From assembly GCF_000015765.1 (NCBI RefSeq), contig NC_008942.1:1007921-1071920 (forward strand): a stretch of 64,000 nt of DNA, given 5' to 3'. The notes under the pieces were generated by a model that saw nothing but the letters and a program-made list of their open reading frames with translations, was not told where the DNA came from and did no database searches. Of this stretch, positions 41,506 through 60,341 are shown piece by piece. The first letter of the stretch is position 1; each line of letters begins with the position of its first letter. Source of the stretch: Methanocorpusculum labreanum Z. Its GTDB lineage: Archaea > Halobacteriota > Methanomicrobia > Methanomicrobiales > Methanocorpusculaceae. A program made the translations under genes and the position numbers.

Positions 41506-42669
41506 CTACTGTAATGTTACAGGATATTTGCGATTGATTTTTTCATAAAGATATTTTGAAAAATCGTTGCTGAGAAGAGAAACATACGATTGCCAATGTA
41601 ATTTACTGCTTACTGCCGGATGTGGAAGTGAAACAAAAATCTGTTGCCGGTTCGTAAACCGTTCAAACAGCGGATCACCAACAATGATATCGTAACACCC
41701 TTCTTCGATAAGTTTTTGGAGATGTCCTTCATTTGAAAGTTTGATGTCTCCTTCACGTGCGATAGTACGAGAAAATGCAAAGAACGTGGCGACATTCACG
41801 TTAGAATAATTCAGGTCTTCAATCAGGAAATCACGTATAGTGTTCGCAGAAATCTGTTCCCCAATTACAAGAGCTTTTCCGGAACAAACGCAAGATGCGG
41901 GAAGTTGCGGCGTATAATCCTGTAAAAATGCCTGCATTCTCTCTTTGCCGTTCGTCGTTCCCGGAAGCATTGCGCAGAATGGAATGCCATATTTTTCCCT
42001 CATTTTTTCTGCAAGAGGAATTGCTGCCGCGGACACCACAATATTTTTTTCTGCATTGGGTGCTTTGATAATCGTCTCCAGCTCATCTCCGGGGAGAGAA
42101 CATAAAATCCGAAATCCGCACGACTCTACAAATGATGCTAACCTCCTATCGTCACCTGAAAGGAAAAAATCTATGGGCGTGTATCCAAGGATATTTACTG
42201 TTTTTGGCTCTTTTACTTCTGAGTCCTTCATTAACTGCTCTTCGATCATCAGGAGAGCTTTTTTGATACCATCATCATAATACTGAAATCCAGTAGTATT
42301 CAGCCCAAATGCGGGGATTTTGGTAGTATCAAAAACCTCAGTTGCAATTCCCGAGATATCGCAACCGATTAATGCAGGGACTGGTGTTCCAAGAATCGCA
42401 ACAAATTTGGGATGATGACTTGCGCATTCCTGAAGAATTTTATTGAGAAGAATCGACTCATCACCCATCGTTGCCTCTTCCTCACGGATAAATGAACTAA
42501 ATACCATCTCTGGAGCATGGTACCAGCGGGGTTCGTCAAATCCGGTAAAATTACCCATACATCCTGATGGTTCATGGATCACAACAAGTCCGCCCATATT
42601 ATAAAATACCGAAGCGGCGCCGGAGTAATCCGTTGCAAATGACGGCAGGTGCACAAACAGATTGCTCAT
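41506..42669 (-). CDS. nitrogenase component 1-like protein, NifK/BchB-like, short
   Basis: The 387-residue protein belongs to the NifD/K superfamily but is about 100 residues shorter than NifK. Cys37 in IHEPSGCMGN aligns with the conserved cluster Cys of NifK/NifD (the HGPxGC motif). At the next expected cluster position the sequence reads GTPVPALIGCD, so the usual Cys is Pro96, and a Cys (103) stands where Asp is usual. Cys82 is a further candidate ligand. It would pair with the protein encoded just upstream (starts 1 base after that gene's stop) as a reductase core. No nifB, nifE or nifN is near, so it is not a dinitrogenase subunit. The substrate is unknown. Confidence 0.8.
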   Translation of the reverse strand: MSNLFVHLPSFATDYSGAASVFYNMGGLVVIHEPSGCMGNFTGFDEPRWYHAPEMVFSSFIREEEATMGDESILLNKILQECASHHPKFVAILGTPVPALIGCDISGIATEVFDTTKIPAFGLNTTGFQYYDDGIKKALLMIEEQLMKDSEVKEPKTVNILGYTPIDFFLSGDDRRLASFVESCGFRILCSLPGDELETIIKAPNAEKNIVVSAAAIPLAEKMREKYGIPFCAMLPGTTNGKERMQAFLQDYTPQLPASCVCSGKALVIGEQISANTIRDFLIEDLNYSNVNVATFFAFSRTIAREGDIKLSNEGHLQKLIEEGCYDIIVGDPLFERFTNRQQIFVSLPHPAVSSKLHWQSYVSLLSNDFSKYLYEKINRKYPVTLQ

Positions 42670-43896
42670 TTATGCCACCAGTCCATATGCTTCGATCATT
42701 TTGCGCAGATCCTTTGGATGAGATACACTCTCAATTAAAAGATTCATCAATAGTTCTATCCCATAGTAGCCAAACATCCCTTCATCACCAAGCAGATCTA
42801 CCACACTTTCAGCACCAGAGAAATATCCTGCATCATATCCTACAGCAATTTCTGCAATGCCGCATTTTCCAATGTTATTTATCATTGCAGGATCTTTCGT
42901 ATCGTGGATAACAATTTTTGGAGCATTCGTTCGTATCCACTCATATGCTTCGCGTTCAAAGGGCACAACGTCTTTTCCGAAAATGTCAGTAACAACAAAG
43001 CCGTAATTTATCAATGACCGGGCAAGACTAAATGGTCTGCATACCGCAGATGCTCCGACGGCGATCGGCTTTTTTCCCACTGCATCTTTTGCTTTATTGA
43101 TAGCTTCCTGCACACGCTTTTCATATGCTTCGAGATAGCATCGTGCAGAAAGCATCGAAAATATCTCTTCATACTGTTCTCTAATCTGAATAATATCATA
43201 AGAGACCGGAACAAAGCGAAAATCCATTCGGGAACTTAGACTTTTCGCTGCAAGAATTGCTTCGGGACGAACCACCAGATTCCATTTTGATCGCCCCATT
43301 CGTTTAAACTCTTCAAATGAGGGTTGATCAGATACATGCAATGTCTCTGTAACCCCACATTTGTTCAGTACCTCATAAATTTCGCTGTTGGAATTGATCG
43401 GCACATTATTCCCAATAAAATTGAGCGTGTTCAGTTGTGATGAAGAGAAATCCAGTAATGCATACATTCTCTCCTGCATAGTCAGTCCAGGGGGCCGTTT
43501 CGTATCTGCAGACACCGGATTCATCAGACAAATTTGAAATACAATGTCGGGATTTCGCTTTTTAAGTTCATCAATTGTGCTTTGTTCATCAAATCCTGCT
43601 AAATAAAGAACACAGCAGATATATACCAAAAATACTTTCGGGCGTTGTATCTGAGGCAGGAGTTCATCGATAGCATTACAGAGCTCATCTTCGACCATGC
43701 CAAGAGCAAGTTCATGCTCATCAAAGAAAAGATAACTGATCCTGTTTTTATACTTCTGCTGAATTGCATTGATGGATGTGTGCCGCCCGCATGAGGGCGG
43801 GCAGACAAACAATAGATAACTTTCCGGAATTAACGAACCGACCCTTACGATCCCATACCCTCCATAGGTTGTTGAGCAGAAACAGAGTTTATTCAT
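42670..43896 (-). CDS. nitrogenase component 1-like protein, NifD/BchN-like, short
   Basis: The 408-residue protein is also of the nitrogenase component 1 superfamily. Cysteines at 5/7, at 36 (VCPPSCGRH) and at 95 (VYICCVLYLAG) match the three cluster-ligating positions of NifD, so an Fe-S cluster shared with its partner is likely. The cofactor-binding Cys and His of nitrogenase (NifD 275 and 442) have no evident equivalents; the region that would hold the His reads AVGYDAGYFSG. It lies between the NifH-like gene (2 bases upstream) and the NifK-like gene. It resembles in layout the BchN/BchB and CfbD reductases and related proteins of unknown role. Confidence 0.8.
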   Translation of the reverse strand: MNKLCFCSTTYGGYGIVRVGSLIPESYLLFVCPPSCGRHTSINAIQQKYKNRISYLFFDEHELALGMVEDELCNAIDELLPQIQRPKVFLVYICCVLYLAGFDEQSTIDELKKRNPDIVFQICLMNPVSADTKRPPGLTMQERMYALLDFSSSQLNTLNFIGNNVPINSNSEIYEVLNKCGVTETLHVSDQPSFEEFKRMGRSKWNLVVRPEAILAAKSLSSRMDFRFVPVSYDIIQIREQYEEIFSMLSARCYLEAYEKRVQEAINKAKDAVGKKPIAVGASAVCRPFSLARSLINYGFVVTDIFGKDVVPFEREAYEWIRTNAPKIVIHDTKDPAMINNIGKCGIAEIAVGYDAGYFSGAESVVDLLGDEGMFGYYGIELLMNLLIESVSHPKDLRKMIEAYGLVA

Positions 43897-43898
43897 AG

Positions 43899-44645
43899 TT
43901 AATCCTCAAGTAAAATTCCTGCTAGTTTTCTATACAAATCTGCTTGAGATGAATTCGGTGCATATTCCACAACAGTCATACCAGCATTTTCAGCCTTTTG
44001 GACAATCGGGTCACGGTTAATCCTGGACAACACCTTTGTATTCATTTCTGCAGCCGCTTTTTCCACAATCTCATCTTCATTTTCAATATTTTTTGCATTG
44101 TAGATGAGTCCCTTCAATGCCGCATATCCACGCTTTGAATAATTATTCACCGCCTGAGAGATGTTATCCGCGGCATACAAGGACATCATCTCGCCGGATG
44201 TCACAATACAGATCTCATCGGCATATCCTTGGCGTATCGGCAGGGCAAATCCTCCACAGACCACATCTCCTAAAACATCATAGAGAATAATATCTGGATG
44301 ATAGGTAGTATAAGCTCCAAGCTCCTCCAATTGTTCAAAAGCAGTAATAATGCCGCGACCTGCACAACCTGACCCGGGTTTTGGCCCCCCCGCCTCTACA
44401 CACAATACTCCACCTGATCCACAGGAAACGATATCTTCCAAACAAATATCATTCTTTTTCTCCCTTATTACTGAGAGAACAGATGGGATCAAATCTCCGT
44501 GAGTTAGATTTCTCGTTGAATCTGCTTTCGGATCGCAGCCGATCTGCATGACCGTGAATCCCTGCTCGGCGAGAGCCATAGAAATATTTGAGACACAGGT
44601 TGATTTTCCGATTCCGCCTTTACCATAAAATGCAATTTTTTTCAT
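43899..44645 (-). CDS. NifH-like reductase ATPase
   Basis: The 248-residue protein is a close NifH homologue. The P-loop GKGGIGKST is at residues 8-16, switch-type CDPKADSTR at 37-45, and the two cysteines that hold the bridging [4Fe-4S] cluster are Cys94 (GSGCAGRG, with Arg97) and Cys130 (GDVVCGGF). SGEMMSLYAADNI follows as in NifH. It lacks the last 40 or so residues of true NifH. It would deliver electrons with ATP hydrolysis to the two component 1-like proteins downstream. It is preceded after 10 bases by an ABC transporter operon, so uptake and reduction appear coupled. Confidence 0.92.
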   Translation of the reverse strand: MKKIAFYGKGGIGKSTCVSNISMALAEQGFTVMQIGCDPKADSTRNLTHGDLIPSVLSVIREKKNDICLEDIVSCGSGGVLCVEAGGPKPGSGCAGRGIITAFEQLEELGAYTTYHPDIILYDVLGDVVCGGFALPIRQGYADEICIVTSGEMMSLYAADNISQAVNNYSKRGYAALKGLIYNAKNIENEDEIVEKAAAEMNTKVLSRINRDPIVQKAENAGMTVVEYAPNSSQADLYRKLAGILLED

Positions 44646-44655
44646 TCATAGCTCC

Positions 44656-45444
44656 TTATTTTCTAATGGATATTGGTAATATGTATTGGTGGGTTTTTGT
44701 TCCGTCAGAGACATTTCCAATCATCACATTCACCCGAAATGCATCGCGAAGATGTTGCTCTGTAATTATCTCAGGAGTATTGCCGCAGATGCTCTCTCCA
44801 TTCCCGAGAAACATCAATGCTTTGTCAGAAATACGCAAAGCATGTTCCGGGTAATGAGTATTGATGATACAGGAGATCGATTTTGAAAGCTCATGTATTT
44901 TCTCAAGGACCATGAGCTGGTTGTGATAATCCAGATTTGATTCCGGTTCGTCCATAATCAATATTTTCGGCTCAGTGGCAAGTGCCCGGGCAATTAAAAC
45001 CAGTTGCATCTCACCCCCCGAAAGAGTTCTACAGGATCGGTTCGCTAAATGTGATATTCCAAGAGTCTCCATGGCACGTTCGGTTATTTCCATGTCGGCA
45101 TCCCCTGGTTCTTTGAAAATAGGAAGATGGGCACTTCGTCCAAGCATAATCATGTCACGAACAAGATAATTGAATGCCGATGATTTTGCCTGAGGAACAT
45201 AAGATACCTGCTTCCAGAATTCTTTGGAAGGCAGTGTTGAAATGTCGGTTTTATCCAGATATGCATTTCCTTGTTTCCAAGGAAGCATATTCATGATACA
45301 TTTCAGTAACGTTGTTTTTCCAATGCCGTTTGGTCCGAGAATTGCGAAGACCTCTTGGTCATTCACCGTGAAATTAATGTTTTTAAATAAATACTCATCA
45401 TGATAACCAAAGCCGCCATTTTGAATAGTTAGTTTCATAGCCAT
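44656..45444 (-). CDS. ABC transporter ATPase, FecE/BtuD type
   Basis: The 262-residue ATPase has Walker A GPNGIGKT, signature TLSGGEMQLVLIARAL and Walker B ILIMDEPESNLD. It belongs to the family that energises uptake of siderophores, haem, cobalamin and similar metal complexes. Its start overlaps the permease stop by 10 bases and its stop is 10 bases before the NifH-like gene. Confidence 0.92.
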   Translation of the reverse strand: MAMKLTIQNGGFGYHDEYLFKNINFTVNDQEVFAILGPNGIGKTTLLKCIMNMLPWKQGNAYLDKTDISTLPSKEFWKQVSYVPQAKSSAFNYLVRDMIMLGRSAHLPIFKEPGDADMEITERAMETLGISHLANRSCRTLSGGEMQLVLIARALATEPKILIMDEPESNLDYHNQLMVLEKIHELSKSISCIINTHYPEHALRISDKALMFLGNGESICGNTPEIITEQHLRDAFRVNVMIGNVSDGTKTHQYILPISIRK

Positions 45445-46439
45445 GACCTCGCTTTTTTAAGAAAGAGATATGCAAATAATGGAGCTCCAATCAACGCCGT
45501 CATAATAGATAACGGGATTTCCGAGGGCGATAGTGTTCTGCAGAGTGTATCGATTATCAGAAGATAGCAGGCTCCAATGCTGATGCTTGCTGGAATAACA
45601 TAACGATTATCTGACCCAACCAGCATTCGGGCAACATGAGGTATTACTAATCCAACCCACCCAATTTGTCCGCAAAGTGATACTGTCGCTGCGACAATCA
45701 ATGTTGCAGCTATGATAATTGTCCACCGGGTACGTTTTGGATTGATTCCACATGATTGGATTTCCTCCTCACTTAACGCAAGGATGTTTAAACGCCATTT
45801 CATTATCCAGATAATGATGATACCAAGGAGTAACAGCGGTGCTGCAATCAGAATTTTTTCATAATTCGCCCCTGCCAAACTGCCCATGAGCCAAAAAGTA
45901 ATTTCAGGAAGTTTCAGCAGAGGGTCGGCGGTATATTTTACCAATGAAATCATCGCTGTAAAAAATCCGGAGACAATGATTCCGGCAAGCACTATCATGA
46001 GGATCGAATCAGTTTTAGCCGCTTTACTTAACGTAAAGGTAATTCCAATCGCCGCAAGACCAAAAATGATTGCAAGAATCTGAACGATGAACATATTTTC
46101 AAAGAGCAAAAGACCAAGTGCTGCGCCAAAGGCAGCTCCCGACGAAACACCGATGATGTCCGGTGAGGCCAATGGGTTTGAAAATGTTGACTGAAACGCT
46201 GCTCCGGCAACGGCAAGTCCTGCTCCTACAAAGAGAGCGAGAAGGATTCGCGGAAGCCGAAGGTTGATAACAACTGACTGGATGGTCGTTTCAACGGGAT
46301 ATCCAAAAAATGCCAAAAATGCTCCATAGACATCAATGGGGTTGATCCAGTATCTTCCAATGCAGAGAGCAAGACAAGCGACTGCTATCGGAAGAAAAAA
46401 TAGAAAAATAAAAAATGATTTTTTTGAGACTGTTTTCAT
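45435..46439 (-). CDS. ABC transporter permease, FecCD/BtuC family
   Basis: The 334-residue membrane protein has about ten transmembrane helices and typical FecCD phrases: RLPRILLALFVGAGLAVAGAAFQ, NPLASPDIIGVSSGAA, GWVGLVIPHVARMLVG and GAPLFAYL. These permeases import iron-siderophores, haem, vitamin B12 or, in some cases, oxyanions. It begins one base after the binding-protein gene. Confidence 0.93.
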   Translation of the reverse strand: MKTVSKKSFFIFLFFLPIAVACLALCIGRYWINPIDVYGAFLAFFGYPVETTIQSVVINLRLPRILLALFVGAGLAVAGAAFQSTFSNPLASPDIIGVSSGAAFGAALGLLLFENMFIVQILAIIFGLAAIGITFTLSKAAKTDSILMIVLAGIIVSGFFTAMISLVKYTADPLLKLPEITFWLMGSLAGANYEKILIAAPLLLLGIIIIWIMKWRLNILALSEEEIQSCGINPKRTRWTIIIAATLIVAATVSLCGQIGWVGLVIPHVARMLVGSDNRYVIPASISIGACYLLIIDTLCRTLSPSEIPLSIMTALIGAPLFAYLFLKKARSWL

Positions 46440-46440
46440 C

Positions 46441-47562
46441 TTAGTGGAGTCTTACTGCAATGTATTCGGGATTCAGGAATCCTTTGATGTCTTCATCTGT
46501 TGCAGTATAATTGAAAAATTCTTTGAAGAAGTATGAGGTTTCTTCTTCCATGTCAAGATCTTTGAACAGGTCAGGATGGTTGATCTGTGCCATCCACTGA
46601 AGGACAAGTCCATCTTCGAGAGATGGTGCATAGGACATGTAGGTTGCATAGGGGAAGATGTATACCTGTTTGTTTTTCACTGCAGTTACCTGACTCCAGT
46701 CGTAACCCGGGATGGTATTGTTGTAGAGGTCGGACGGCAGAGCATTCTGGGAGTTGGCAAAGTAGATAATTTCAGGGTCCCATGCAATGATTTGTTCCAT
46801 GTCAACTGGTTTGAGTCCGGAAAGTTCGGCAGCAACGTTTTCTGCTCCGGTTGCATTCAACCAGTATTCAGAATAGTGTCCGCTTCCTGCCACCTGTAAC
46901 GTTCCCTCTTTGTAGGTAAAGATAATTAATGCCCGCGGCTTTTCGTCATCGGTTACTGTGTTGATTTTTTCAGCGACTTTTTTCTGGACTTCACTGTTAT
47001 AAGCAATAAGATCATCGGCTTTGTCAGTATCTCCAACGATTTTACCTAATTGATTGAGCCAGAGATCGAGTTGGGTAAATACGTTGTAACCAGTGGCGCC
47101 AAGTGAGGTGGTGAATCCGACCGCAGTAAGATTCGCATCTGTGAGAAGGGCATATTCATCCTGACGTGATCCGGTGTAGATTACTACATCGGGATCAAGC
47201 CGGAGAATTTCTTCGATGTTGATAACAGTTCCCTGAACAAATCCGGTTTCAACAGAGTCAAGTTCCGGATAAATTGTTGACATAACTCCTGATTTTGCGT
47301 AGGTAATACCTGCCGAGTTTGCACCAACCAGTTTGTCGGTTCCATCCATGTAGTAAACGTATATGGGTACCATCGGCGACATGGAAGTGATAATCACACG
47401 ATCAACTGATGAAGGGAGGGTGACGTTGTTTCCTGCAAGATCAGTAAACGTTGTTCCAGGGCCAATGGTTGGTTGGCTTGTTCCAATACATCCGGCAATT
47501 GCGCATATTGCGATAATTACTACTATTATCAGTGGTAGATAAACATTTTTTTTATGCGGCAT
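46441..47562 (-). CDS. ABC transporter substrate-binding lipoprotein, FecB/BtuF family
   Basis: From the Met at 47562 the protein has 373 residues with a lipoprotein signal (about residues 1-24, ending IAGC). The PF01497-type fold is shown by LPSSVDRVIITS, VNIEEILRLDPDVVIYTG and VDMEQIIAWDPEIIYFA. It captures the substrate of this ABC system outside the membrane. The ligand is unknown: metal-chelate, haem, corrinoid or another tetrapyrrole are all possible. It is the first gene of a six-gene operon. A TATA-like stretch near 47595-47605 is placed for a leaderless mRNA from 47562, so the longer frame to 47658 is not used. Confidence 0.88.
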   Translation of the reverse strand: MPHKKNVYLPLIIVVIIAICAIAGCIGTSQPTIGPGTTFTDLAGNNVTLPSSVDRVIITSMSPMVPIYVYYMDGTDKLVGANSAGITYAKSGVMSTIYPELDSVETGFVQGTVINIEEILRLDPDVVIYTGSRQDEYALLTDANLTAVGFTTSLGATGYNVFTQLDLWLNQLGKIVGDTDKADDLIAYNSEVQKKVAEKINTVTDDEKPRALIIFTYKEGTLQVAGSGHYSEYWLNATGAENVAAELSGLKPVDMEQIIAWDPEIIYFANSQNALPSDLYNNTIPGYDWSQVTAVKNKQVYIFPYATYMSYAPSLEDGLVLQWMAQINHPDLFKDLDMEEETSYFFKEFFNYTATDEDIKGFLNPEYIAVRLH

Positions 47563-47837
47563 AATATTATCAAAAACATTATTGGATGCATTAAGTATTA
47601 ATAAAACACTATTTATTATTACTATGCCGCCCATTAAAATTAAATTGTGTGATAACAATTCTAATAATATTTTGTTATGTTATACTTATGGGTGTATTTT
47701 TTTGGTACATGTGTGCTGAGTTGACTGAATTCCTGCTTTCTTCTCCAATGACAGATTCAGAGAAATTTTGTCAGAGTCATAAATCAAAATAATAATTAGT
47801 AGCAGGTTATAATTCACGAATGTAAAGTATATCCTAT
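47563..47837. promoter_or_regulatory. divergent promoter region of the nitrogenase-like operon and methyltransferase
   Basis: This AT-rich gap holds both promoters. TTATTAATAC near 47595-47605 serves the operon to the left and GTTATAATTC near 47804-47813 the methyltransferase to the right. TTGTGTGATAACAA at 47645-47658 is an imperfect dyad (TTGT-N6-ACAA) between them and could be an operator. Regulation by metal is inference. Confidence 0.4.
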
Positions 47838-48671
47838 ATGATGGAATTACCTGACTACTGTCAACTTTGGGATGAAACCTATGCCCTCGCCCTCGAAGGA
47901 AAACTCAGCTCCGGAGATACGGAAGACAGTTTCTGGTCGAATCAGGAGAATGTTGATCGATTCGTCAAACATCTTCTCAATAAAAAAGGCGGCCGCATCG
48001 AGGATAATATCGCATCGATGCATATCCCTCCGGGTTCAACCGTCCTCGATATAGGCGCCGGACCCGGAACACTCGCCGTCCCTCTTGCCTGTGCCGGATG
48101 TCAGGTCACCACAATCGAACCGTCTGTTCCCATGGGTAAGGCAATGGAAGAGTATCGGCAGCATATGCAGGCTCCGCACATTTCCGAGATCCGCAAACGA
48201 TGGGAAAACGTAACGCCCCAGGAAGCAGGCCTCCACGATTACGTTATCGCATCTAGATCGCTCATGTTTGGGAATCTGCGGGAAAATATGCTCATGATGG
48301 ACGGAACTGCAAAGAAAGGCGTTCATATCTACTGGTATCTGACCTCCAAATCCTCGTCGTGGGGACATGAGGATCTCTGGCAGAGCCTGCATGGAAAACC
48401 GTATTACAGTGCCCCGAATGCATCCGTTCTCTGGAATGCGTTGAATCAGCTTGGGGTCTATGCAAATATCGATCTGAAAACAAAAACCAACGGACATCTC
48501 TATTCCACGGTTTTGGATATGCAGGAGGATTATTACGGTCGTTTGGAGGCTAAGGAACCCTGGCAGAAGGATATCGTGAACGCTGATCTGGATAATAAAT
48601 ACGAGACGACGGATGCCGGGATACGTGTTCCAAGTACCTCATACCTTGCCCACATCAGGTGGGAAAAATAA
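47838..48671 (+). CDS. SAM-dependent methyltransferase divergent from the nitrogenase-like operon
   Basis: The 277-residue protein has the SAM motif VLDIGAGPGTLAVPLA (residues 69-84) and an acidic TTIEPS strand after it. The C-terminal half (ASRSLMFGNLRENM, WYLTSKSSS) is unlike the common small-molecule methyltransferases that I can name. The gene starts 276 bases from the nitrogenase-like operon on the other strand and shares its promoter gap, which suggests a linked function, perhaps on the transported or reduced compound. A second, distantly similar methyltransferase is at 29-841. Confidence 0.82.
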   Translation: MMELPDYCQLWDETYALALEGKLSSGDTEDSFWSNQENVDRFVKHLLNKKGGRIEDNIASMHIPPGSTVLDIGAGPGTLAVPLACAGCQVTTIEPSVPMGKAMEEYRQHMQAPHISEIRKRWENVTPQEAGLHDYVIASRSLMFGNLRENMLMMDGTAKKGVHIYWYLTSKSSSWGHEDLWQSLHGKPYYSAPNASVLWNALNQLGVYANIDLKTKTNGHLYSTVLDMQEDYYGRLEAKEPWQKDIVNADLDNKYETTDAGIRVPSTSYLAHIRWEK

Positions 48672-59525: not shown

Positions 59526-59569
59526 CCCTTTATCTTTTTCTGATGTATATCTAATATTGTGTCGCTAAG

Positions 59570-59584
59570 AAAAATTATATATAC
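59570..59584 (+). promoter_or_regulatory. TATA box for the NifX-domain protein
   Basis: AAAATTATATATAC is a strong TATA element. Transcription would start near 59603, leaving only a few bases before the ATG at 59610, which favours that start over the Met at 59595. Confidence 0.5.
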
Positions 59585-59609
59585 TTTCGCGCATATGTGT
59601 ACTAATGTT

Positions 59610-60341
59610 ATGACACAGGAAATCAAAAAAATCGCCATTGCCCAGGACGGGAGTTTGGTCTCCCAGCATTTTGGTCACTGTATGAGCTATGCATTATTCA
59701 ATCTCGAAGATGGAAAATTGAGCCGACTGCCCGATTTGGAAAACCCCGGTCATGAACCCGGAAAACTCCCGCGCCTTCTTGCCGCCGAAGGTGTCAATCT
59801 CATCATCGCCGGGGGTATGGGTCCGCGTGCCATTGATCTCTTTGAAGAAAATGGTATAGAAGTTATTCTTGGCGTCTCGGGAGATCTTGGGCGTGCAGCC
59901 GAGGCTTATGTAAATGGGACGCTCACCGCCGGAACAAGTTCTTGCTCACACGAAGATCATGCATGCGGCGGCGAAGATCACGAACATGAACACGATCACC
60001 CCGCCCATATTGTGTGCATCAGCTCGACCGGGACGTCACTTGACTCTCCGGCAGACATGAGATTCGGCCGTGCCCCGTACTTTGCCGTGATCAATCTTGC
60101 CGCCAACACTGCTTCAATATTTCAGAACCCCTTCACCGATGCAGAAAGCGGCGTCGGTCCCAAGGTTGTCCAGCTTCTTGCTTCCAACGGCGTATCGGTC
60201 CTCATCACCGGCCGGAGCGGAGGAAATGCTAGTGCGGCACTGAAAGCCGGAGGTATAGCTGCGTATGAACTTACAGAACCGATCACGATCGCCGAAGCCC
60301 TTCAAAAATATCTTGCTCACGAACTGTCCCCTCTTATGTAA
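59610..60341 (+). CDS. tandem NifX/NifB-type cluster-binding protein with a His-rich linker
   Basis: The 243-residue protein consists of two dinitrogenase iron-molybdenum cofactor domains (PF02579-like). The first has IAIAQDGSLVSQHFGHCMSYALF and AGGMGPRAIDLFEENGIEV. The second has DMRFGRAPYFAVINL and GPKVVQLLASNGVSVLITG. Between them lies a metal-binding linker of Cys, His and Asp/Glu (residues about 109-130: CSHEDHACGG, EHEHDHPAH). Such proteins bind Mo-Fe-S or other clusters. The gene stands alone after its own TATA box. Its job is unknown. Confidence 0.88.
   Translation: MTQEIKKIAIAQDGSLVSQHFGHCMSYALFNLEDGKLSRLPDLENPGHEPGKLPRLLAAEGVNLIIAGGMGPRAIDLFEENGIEVILGVSGDLGRAAEAYVNGTLTAGTSSCSHEDHACGGEDHEHEHDHPAHIVCISSTGTSLDSPADMRFGRAPYFAVINLAANTASIFQNPFTDAESGVGPKVVQLLASNGVSVLITGRSGGNASAALKAGGIAAYELTEPITIAEALQKYLAHELSPLM

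Follow-up and report, generated by a model that had tools for sequence, protein, structure and literature searches.

The operon considered here joins three genes for an ABC importer to three for nitrogenase-like proteins (H, D and K, together HDK). It lies on the minus strand at 41506-47562 of a 64,000-nucleotide stretch of the Methanocorpusculum labreanum Z genome (the window; positions 1,007,921-1,071,920 of the single contig of 1,804,962 bases that was searched as the genome). The gene set is conserved and linked to importers across phyla, its phylogeny is separate from those of known relatives, and the ligands of the nitrogenase iron-molybdenum cofactor (FeMo-co) are missing. Our preferred reading, to which we give a probability of roughly 0.4, is that the operon encodes an importer together with a dedicated ATP-driven reductase whose substrate is the metal chelate so imported; the reduction would most likely set the metal free. 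The FecB-type lipoprotein would capture the chelate outside the cell, and the FecCD permease and its ATPase would carry it inward; cytosolic H, spending ATP, would pass electrons of very low potential to DK, and DK, predicted to carry an ordinary Fe-S cluster but to lack a FeMo-type cofactor, would reduce the imported complex in the cytosol. The substrate would most likely be a chelate of siderophore or metallophore type, and the metal freed by reduction would probably be iron, with nickel in some relatives. Ordinary ferric reductases cannot reach the low potentials of ferric chelates that are strongly held, whereas a NifH-type donor could; release by reduction is proposed on that basis, and we infer it along with the substrate and the direction of electron flow. 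The first-pass annotation of this DNA had described six tightly packed importer and HDK genes, and Pfam matches bear this out at the same coordinates:

46441-47562, minus strand: SBP, FecB-like substrate-binding lipoprotein, with an ATG start (Peripla_BP_2, 82 bits)
45435-46439, minus strand: FecCD-type permease (FecCD, 301 bits)
44656-45444, minus strand: ATPase of the ABC importer (ABC_tran, 113 bits)
43899-44645, minus strand: H, NifH-like ATP-dependent reductase (Fer4_NifH, 323 bits)
42670-43896, minus strand: D, NifD/E-like component (Oxidored_nitro, 59 bits; AlphaFold monomer, mean predicted local distance difference test score (pLDDT) 92.8)
41506-42669, minus strand: K, NifK/N-like component (Oxidored_nitro, 101 bits; AlphaFold monomer, pLDDT 86.1)

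Because these genes are co-directional and separated, from the substrate-binding protein (SBP) to K, by gaps of 1, -10, 10, 2 and 0 bp, they very probably form a single transcript. An alternative in-frame TTG start of the SBP gene lies at 47658. By their Pfam matches, SBP, FecCD permease and ATPase constitute an importer of type II (FecCD/BtuCD-type).

When 84,980 species genomes were scanned with the K alignment as the only seed, 80 loci were found, belonging to Firmicutes, Spirochaetes, Synergistetes, Chloroflexi and Methanospirillum, the commonest carriers being Lachnospiraceae, Oscillospiraceae, Syntrophomonas, Spirochaetes, Synergistetes and Chloroflexi. H was found by tblastn in 75 of them, and in the remaining five K lies near a contig edge. 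Importer linkage was counted within 6 kb of K at the 43 loci whose sequence extends 6 kb or more to either side of K: a permease stands beside HDK in 41 (38 FecCD, three Nik/Dpp-type) and two have neither type. Since the loci were chosen through K alone, this linkage is independent evidence, and since the six-gene unit recurs in distant phyla, the gene set is far beyond chance; together with the near-constant presence of H and the compact spacing, the importer linkage argues for the preferred reading. A copy of the HDK-importer locus is carried by plasmid pTS1 of Treponema saccharophilum, and plasmid pSPTER of Sporomusa termitida bears a related H with other D and K proteins and an importer; with such plasmid-borne loci, the unit is mobile. 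Within the class of M. labreanum, D occurs in four of 232 genomes, namely this one, a congener (94%) and two members of another family (30%), the locus of one of which matches Methanospirillum stamsii. A Spirochaetaceae metagenome-assembled genome carries a doubled HDK without importer between HydF-, HydE- and HypF-like genes of hydrogenase maturation (L073:1134-13359).

Residue conservation was read from alignments of 71 D and 70 K sequences, together with the H alignment, and the positions that bear on the cofactor are as follows:

43789-43791, minus strand: D Cys36, predicted cluster ligand at the alpha-Cys88 position (71/71)
43612-43614, minus strand: D Cys95, predicted cluster ligand at the alpha-Cys154 position (71/71), aligned with a P-cluster-type cysteine of NifE
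42559-42561, minus strand: K Cys37, predicted cluster ligand at the beta-Cys95 position (70/70; NifE/NifN alignment)
42382-42384, minus strand: K Pro96, in place of the fourth P-cluster-type cysteine (70/70), aligned with a cysteine of NifE
42628-42630, minus strand: K Asp14, candidate non-cysteine fourth ligand (70/70)
42523-42537, minus strand: K DEPRW motif, residues 45-49 (70/70), in the loop next to Cys37
44364-44366, minus strand: H Cys94, [4Fe-4S] ligand, invariant
44256-44258, minus strand: H Cys130, [4Fe-4S] ligand, invariant

Across D and K there are just three invariant cysteines, D Cys36, D Cys95 and K Cys37. A P-cluster requires six, so that DK likely holds an ordinary Fe-S cluster, the fourth site of which would be non-cysteine or open. 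K Asp14 is put forward as a candidate for that site because it is invariant and near the missing beta-Cys70 position. At the D sites aligned with the FeMo-co ligands alpha-Cys275 and alpha-His442, other residues are found, both when the family profile is compared with NifE and in the family consensus. The missing FeMo-co ligands and the shortage of cysteines for a P-cluster fit the preferred reading, and most of what the first-pass annotation had reported here is confirmed by the alignments: the intact cluster cysteines of H, the single cluster cysteine of K with Pro96 replacing another, and the want of FeMo-co Cys/His ligands. Its third cluster cysteine in D did not survive, Cys7 being kept in 27 of 71 sequences. 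The region around the DEPRW motif is of low confidence in the K model (pLDDT below 50 at residues 39-44, mean 50 for 41-50), as would suit a loop that needs a partner subunit or substrate to become ordered.

Phylogeny places the system outside the clades with which it was compared. H scores below the curated cut-offs for both nifH (333 against 394 bits) and CfbC (328 against 402 bits), and the Bch models likewise stay below theirs (BchL 199 against 345 bits, BchB 30 against 490 bits). A clade of transporter-linked H proteins has a Shimodaira-Hasegawa-like approximate likelihood ratio test (SH-aLRT) support of 98 in the larger tree and 94/89 in the careful tree; placing the window H with CfbC or with NifH was rejected by the approximately unbiased (AU) test (p-AU 0.011 and 0.003, respectively). 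The sister of the window H is the H of pSPTER (bootstrap 96, SH-aLRT 93). D and K each form a clade of their own (support 100 each) that excludes the Nif, CfbD and Bch proteins as well as this genome's second pair; the deeper joins of their tree are unsure owing to long branches. In these trees, which did not include Mar and published group VI sequences, neither H nor D and K fall within a known clade; the cofactor content of the group VI nitrogenase-like proteins is itself debated (PMC12176620). Comparison of the D and K folds with PDB structures did not tell nitrogenase, NifEN and dark-operative protochlorophyllide oxidoreductase (DPOR) apart.

The rest of the genome was searched for nitrogenase-family genes. 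It has two NifH-family members, the window H and a gene at 150440-151237 that exceeds the CfbC cut-off (423 against 402 bits), and five matches to PF00148. Two of these are the window D and K, two more form a pair next to the CfbC-type gene, and the fifth is CfbD-like; to judge from its neighbours read by eye, this last gene stands in a tetrapyrrole cluster away from the operon. No canonical nifD, nifK, nifE or nifN was found in the genome, and because these are absent it cannot, on its gene content, make a canonical nitrogenase. The earlier statement that nifB, nifE and nifN are missing holds for the operon and, for nifE and nifN, genome-wide, but a nifB above cut-off (372 bits) lies elsewhere. 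Nitrogenase was accordingly ruled out for HDK: FeMo-co ligands are absent, three invariant cysteines compare with the six of a P-cluster, and there is no nifEN. The second nitrogenase-like pair (148281-151240) has as neighbors the sole CfbC-type gene, a methyltransferase and an importer that is Opp/Nik-like. In 41 of the 41 Methanomicrobiales genomes listed, PF00148 matches occur as adjacent pairs, and single genes fusing NifH and NifE-like parts also occur in this order (L183; L196:6441-8456), in M. stamsii with another FecCD importer alongside.

As to the substrate, clues come from the neighbors of HDK genes. On pSPTER the order is a TonB siderophore receptor, an AraC regulator, SBP, two iron permeases, ATPase, H, D, K, a PF00756 esterase and a second TonB receptor. 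The first receptor is above the TonB-siderophore cut-off and is counted in favor of the preferred reading; the best models for SBP and esterase, both below cut-off, are the enterobactin SBP and enterochelin esterase. A search of the other 80 loci for a siderophore-type esterase or TonB receptor gave none. M. stamsii has a second HDK with another type of DK (L195:2555-9360), whose H falls inside the clade of the window H in the main tree and which adjoins an iron-dependent repressor and a DUF364/DUF4213 protein with a putative role in heavy-metal chelation. At Treponema and SAR324 loci HDK stands with a Nik/Dpp-type importer and a NicO-like protein, possibly a nickel variant of the system. These three contexts add to the argument for a reductase of imported chelates. 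FeoB, DtxR and Fur occur near two Lachnospiraceae loci, but as raw neighbor counts carry little weight. The combination of Nik/Dpp-type importer and NicO-like protein was seen at L042, L081, L087 and L088, with a CooC-like MinD/ParA-family ATPase at L042 and L088. Paired half-transporters near some loci were set aside, as their PDB matches favor exporters over IrtA.

Several observations weigh against this reading. Ferrous iron is available to anaerobes of reducing habitats. The Sporomusa D and K lie outside the clades of the window D and K, so that the siderophore context transfers through H alone, and iron regulators are found near few loci only. The SBP family profile matches 4ovk (322 bits), MolA/HI_1472 (158 bits), Helicobacter nickel/iron SBPs (98 bits) and BtuF (39 bits), and the characterized protein closest to the family is thus MolA, a molybdate binder, not FepB. 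The main text of a study of the Clostridium difficile Fur regulon lists no nitrogenase-like gene (PMC6311696). Apart from these points, the window SBP has Tyr-Met-Ser at residues 308-310 where most relatives have Tyr-Arg-Trp, and the loss of this signature suggests that its ligand may differ from theirs.

Among the alternatives, a tetrapyrrole reductase of the DPOR/CfbCD type, by which an imported haem or other metallo-tetrapyrrole would be reduced at the ring for degradation, detoxification or conversion, is unlikely, though the likeliest of them. DPOR and CfbCD, which lack FeMo-co and hold Fe-S clusters alone, do reduce tetrapyrroles (PMC12176620); the K model fits DPOR-B (template modeling (TM) scores 0.75/0.69), which the K profile also matches, and both FecCD and Dpp-type importers can carry haem. 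An HbpS-like protein, of a haem-degrading family, follows the operon in two Synergistetes and is one reason for keeping haem as a rival. Set against this, D and K fall apart from CfbD and the Bch proteins in the tree, the invariant residues of DK are strongly polar (DEPRW and many Asp/Glu), unlike a hydrophobic pigment pocket, and the SBP is not of haem type (34 bits for the window SBP against IsdE, 38-56 bits for the family against haem SBPs). It is unlikely that HDK is instead a scaffold or maturase in the manner of NifEN, building imported metal with the help of H into a cluster for another enzyme. There is no cysteine at the NifE cofactor site, the carriers differ widely and share no conserved client enzyme nearby, and the hydrogenase-maturation context is confined to one of the 80 loci; that locus, where the doubled HDK is flanked by HydE/HydF-like genes, nonetheless speaks for a scaffold, as do the NifB of this genome, the nearness of the D profile to NifE among solved structures, and an earlier proposal that metal transport is coupled to cofactor assembly (Dos Santos 2012; PMC3464626).

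Import and reduction of a metal-free organic substrate, as in methylthio-alkane reductase or the isethionate-linked nitrogen-fixation-like (NFL) system, is improbable. Other nitrogenase-like HDK systems adjoin transporters and act in sulfur assimilation (MarHDK; PMC11423573), but the importers here are FecCD or Nik type rather than sulfonate type, and methylthio-alkane reductase uses nitrogenase metalloclusters (PMC12552129), the ligands for which are missing from D and K. That the importer brings in molybdate or tungstate, with HDK serving the metabolism of these metals, is very improbable: MolA is the nearest SBP of known function and a MoeA-like gene lies near three loci, which keeps the idea among the rivals, yet the MolA match is distant, the 24 loci scanned for riboswitches lack one for molybdenum cofactor, and an oxyanion has no need of any known nitrogenase-like reductase. 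An Rfam scan of 24 HDK loci (430 kb) found no cobalamin, NiCo or molybdenum cofactor (Moco) riboswitch, whereas a cobalamin riboswitch is present, away from HDK loci, in 11 of 14 host genomes, which served as positive control. A corrinoid substrate is disfavored on this ground, and the SBP match to BtuF is remote. BtuC and a corrinoid ATPase are the NCBIfam models that the permease and the ATPase match best, both far below cut-off; import and reduction of cobalamin or another corrinoid by HDK has the slightest chance of all. The proposal in the first-pass annotation of an ATP-driven reductase tied to a metal-complex importer and outside known clades is supported, and neither outcome that would have refuted it, clustering inside a known functional clade or FeMo-co ligands with a complete nif set, was seen in the comparisons made; of the ligands that it named, siderophores gain from the Sporomusa locus, haem or another tetrapyrrole stays, and corrinoids recede.

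The operon appears to be foreign to this genome. GC content at third codon positions (GC3) is 0.37-0.43 in all six genes, the lowest among the larger open reading frames (ORFs) of the window, the remaining ORFs having 0.43-0.64; this, the patchy spread in the genus and the position of H among bacteria in the tree suggest horizontal gain. A gene for an S-adenosylmethionine (SAM) methyltransferase at 47838-48671, whose position beside the operon is kept in the congener, probably lies outside the acquired unit because its GC3 (0.54) is native. SAM methyltransferases of several kinds recurrently adjoin HDK operons (L029, L031, L038, L040, L041, L044, L051 and L071, besides the window). No inverted repeats upstream of the operon are conserved between the two Methanocorpusculum copies. 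Elsewhere in the window, the product of 59559-60341 looks like a cofactor-binding protein of NifX/NifB type; genes resembling formate dehydrogenase lie downstream of it.

In the nitrogenase superfamily only a few branches have a known function, namely nitrogen fixation, cofactor assembly, tetrapyrrole reduction and C-S cleavage. The HDK-importer branch is common in anaerobes of gut, termite, rumen and sediment and has been in print since 2012 without a function; it can now be defined by a gene set that is compact and open to testing, by conserved residues and by a handful of candidate substrates. If HDK does reduce imported metal chelates, cells would have a way of acquiring metals that is driven by ATP, and the superfamily would gain a new chemistry. 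A wider generalization is conceivable, although doubtful: that anaerobes widely acquire metals by breaking imported chelates with an ATP-driven reductase of nitrogenase-like type in place of a flavin or NAD(P)H ferric reductase, the active-site signature of the enzyme being a three-cysteine Fe-S cluster and the invariant DEPRW loop.

The first-pass annotation knew of no function established for genes so arranged, and our literature search, from which preprints were excluded and in which subscription papers were few, likewise found no paper that gives one for this HDK clade. The observation itself is not new, genes and transporter neighborhood having been published in 2012: Mlab_1040 and Mlab_1039 were listed as nitrogenase-like, the NifD/E-like subunit having two conserved cysteines and the NifK/N-like subunit one, and M. 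labreanum was among the cases co-located with ABC transporters for which a link between metal transport and cofactor assembly was suggested (Dos Santos 2012; PMC3464626). These two genes should be the window D and K, because gene numbers near 1040 suit the position of the window. Transporter-adjacent nitrogenase-like NifHEN proteins were reported there also for Dhaf_1539/1540, Coprococcus and Dorea (PMC3464626), and the Desulfitobacterium hafniense genome paper describes three additional nifHDK homologs, each with transporter genes (PMC3306737).

Compared with known systems, the operon comes closest to the 2012 group, with which it shares a D with two conserved cysteines, a K with one and an ABC transporter alongside; both features hold family-wide (cysteines in 71/71, 71/71 and 70/70 sequences, adjacent importer at 41/43 loci), and the 2012 text itself assigned no function and contains no survey of operons across the family, no importer type, no list of invariant residues, no phylogeny of H and no siderophore-linked sister. 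MolBC-A is likewise a type II importer, and MolA is the second-best match of the SBP profile, but no reductase is attached to it and the best SBP match is 4ovk rather than MolA. MarHDK shares the HDK architecture; its metallocluster ligands, judging from cysteine counts, are absent from the window D and K. NifE is the PDB structure nearest to the D family profile, yet the window D, unlike NifEN, has no cofactor cysteine and no P-cluster-type cysteine set. CfbCD also pairs a NifH-like ATPase with a component-1-fold protein lacking FeMo-co, and the window H is ~54% identical to the genome's own CfbC-type H, but CfbD is a single gene in the cfb cluster, whereas D and K are two genes in other clades. 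The cluster of DPOR is held by three cysteines of BchN and an aspartate of BchB; the window proteins have the same component-1 fold without FeMo-co, but belong to separate clades, and their predicted ligands are two cysteines from D and one from K.

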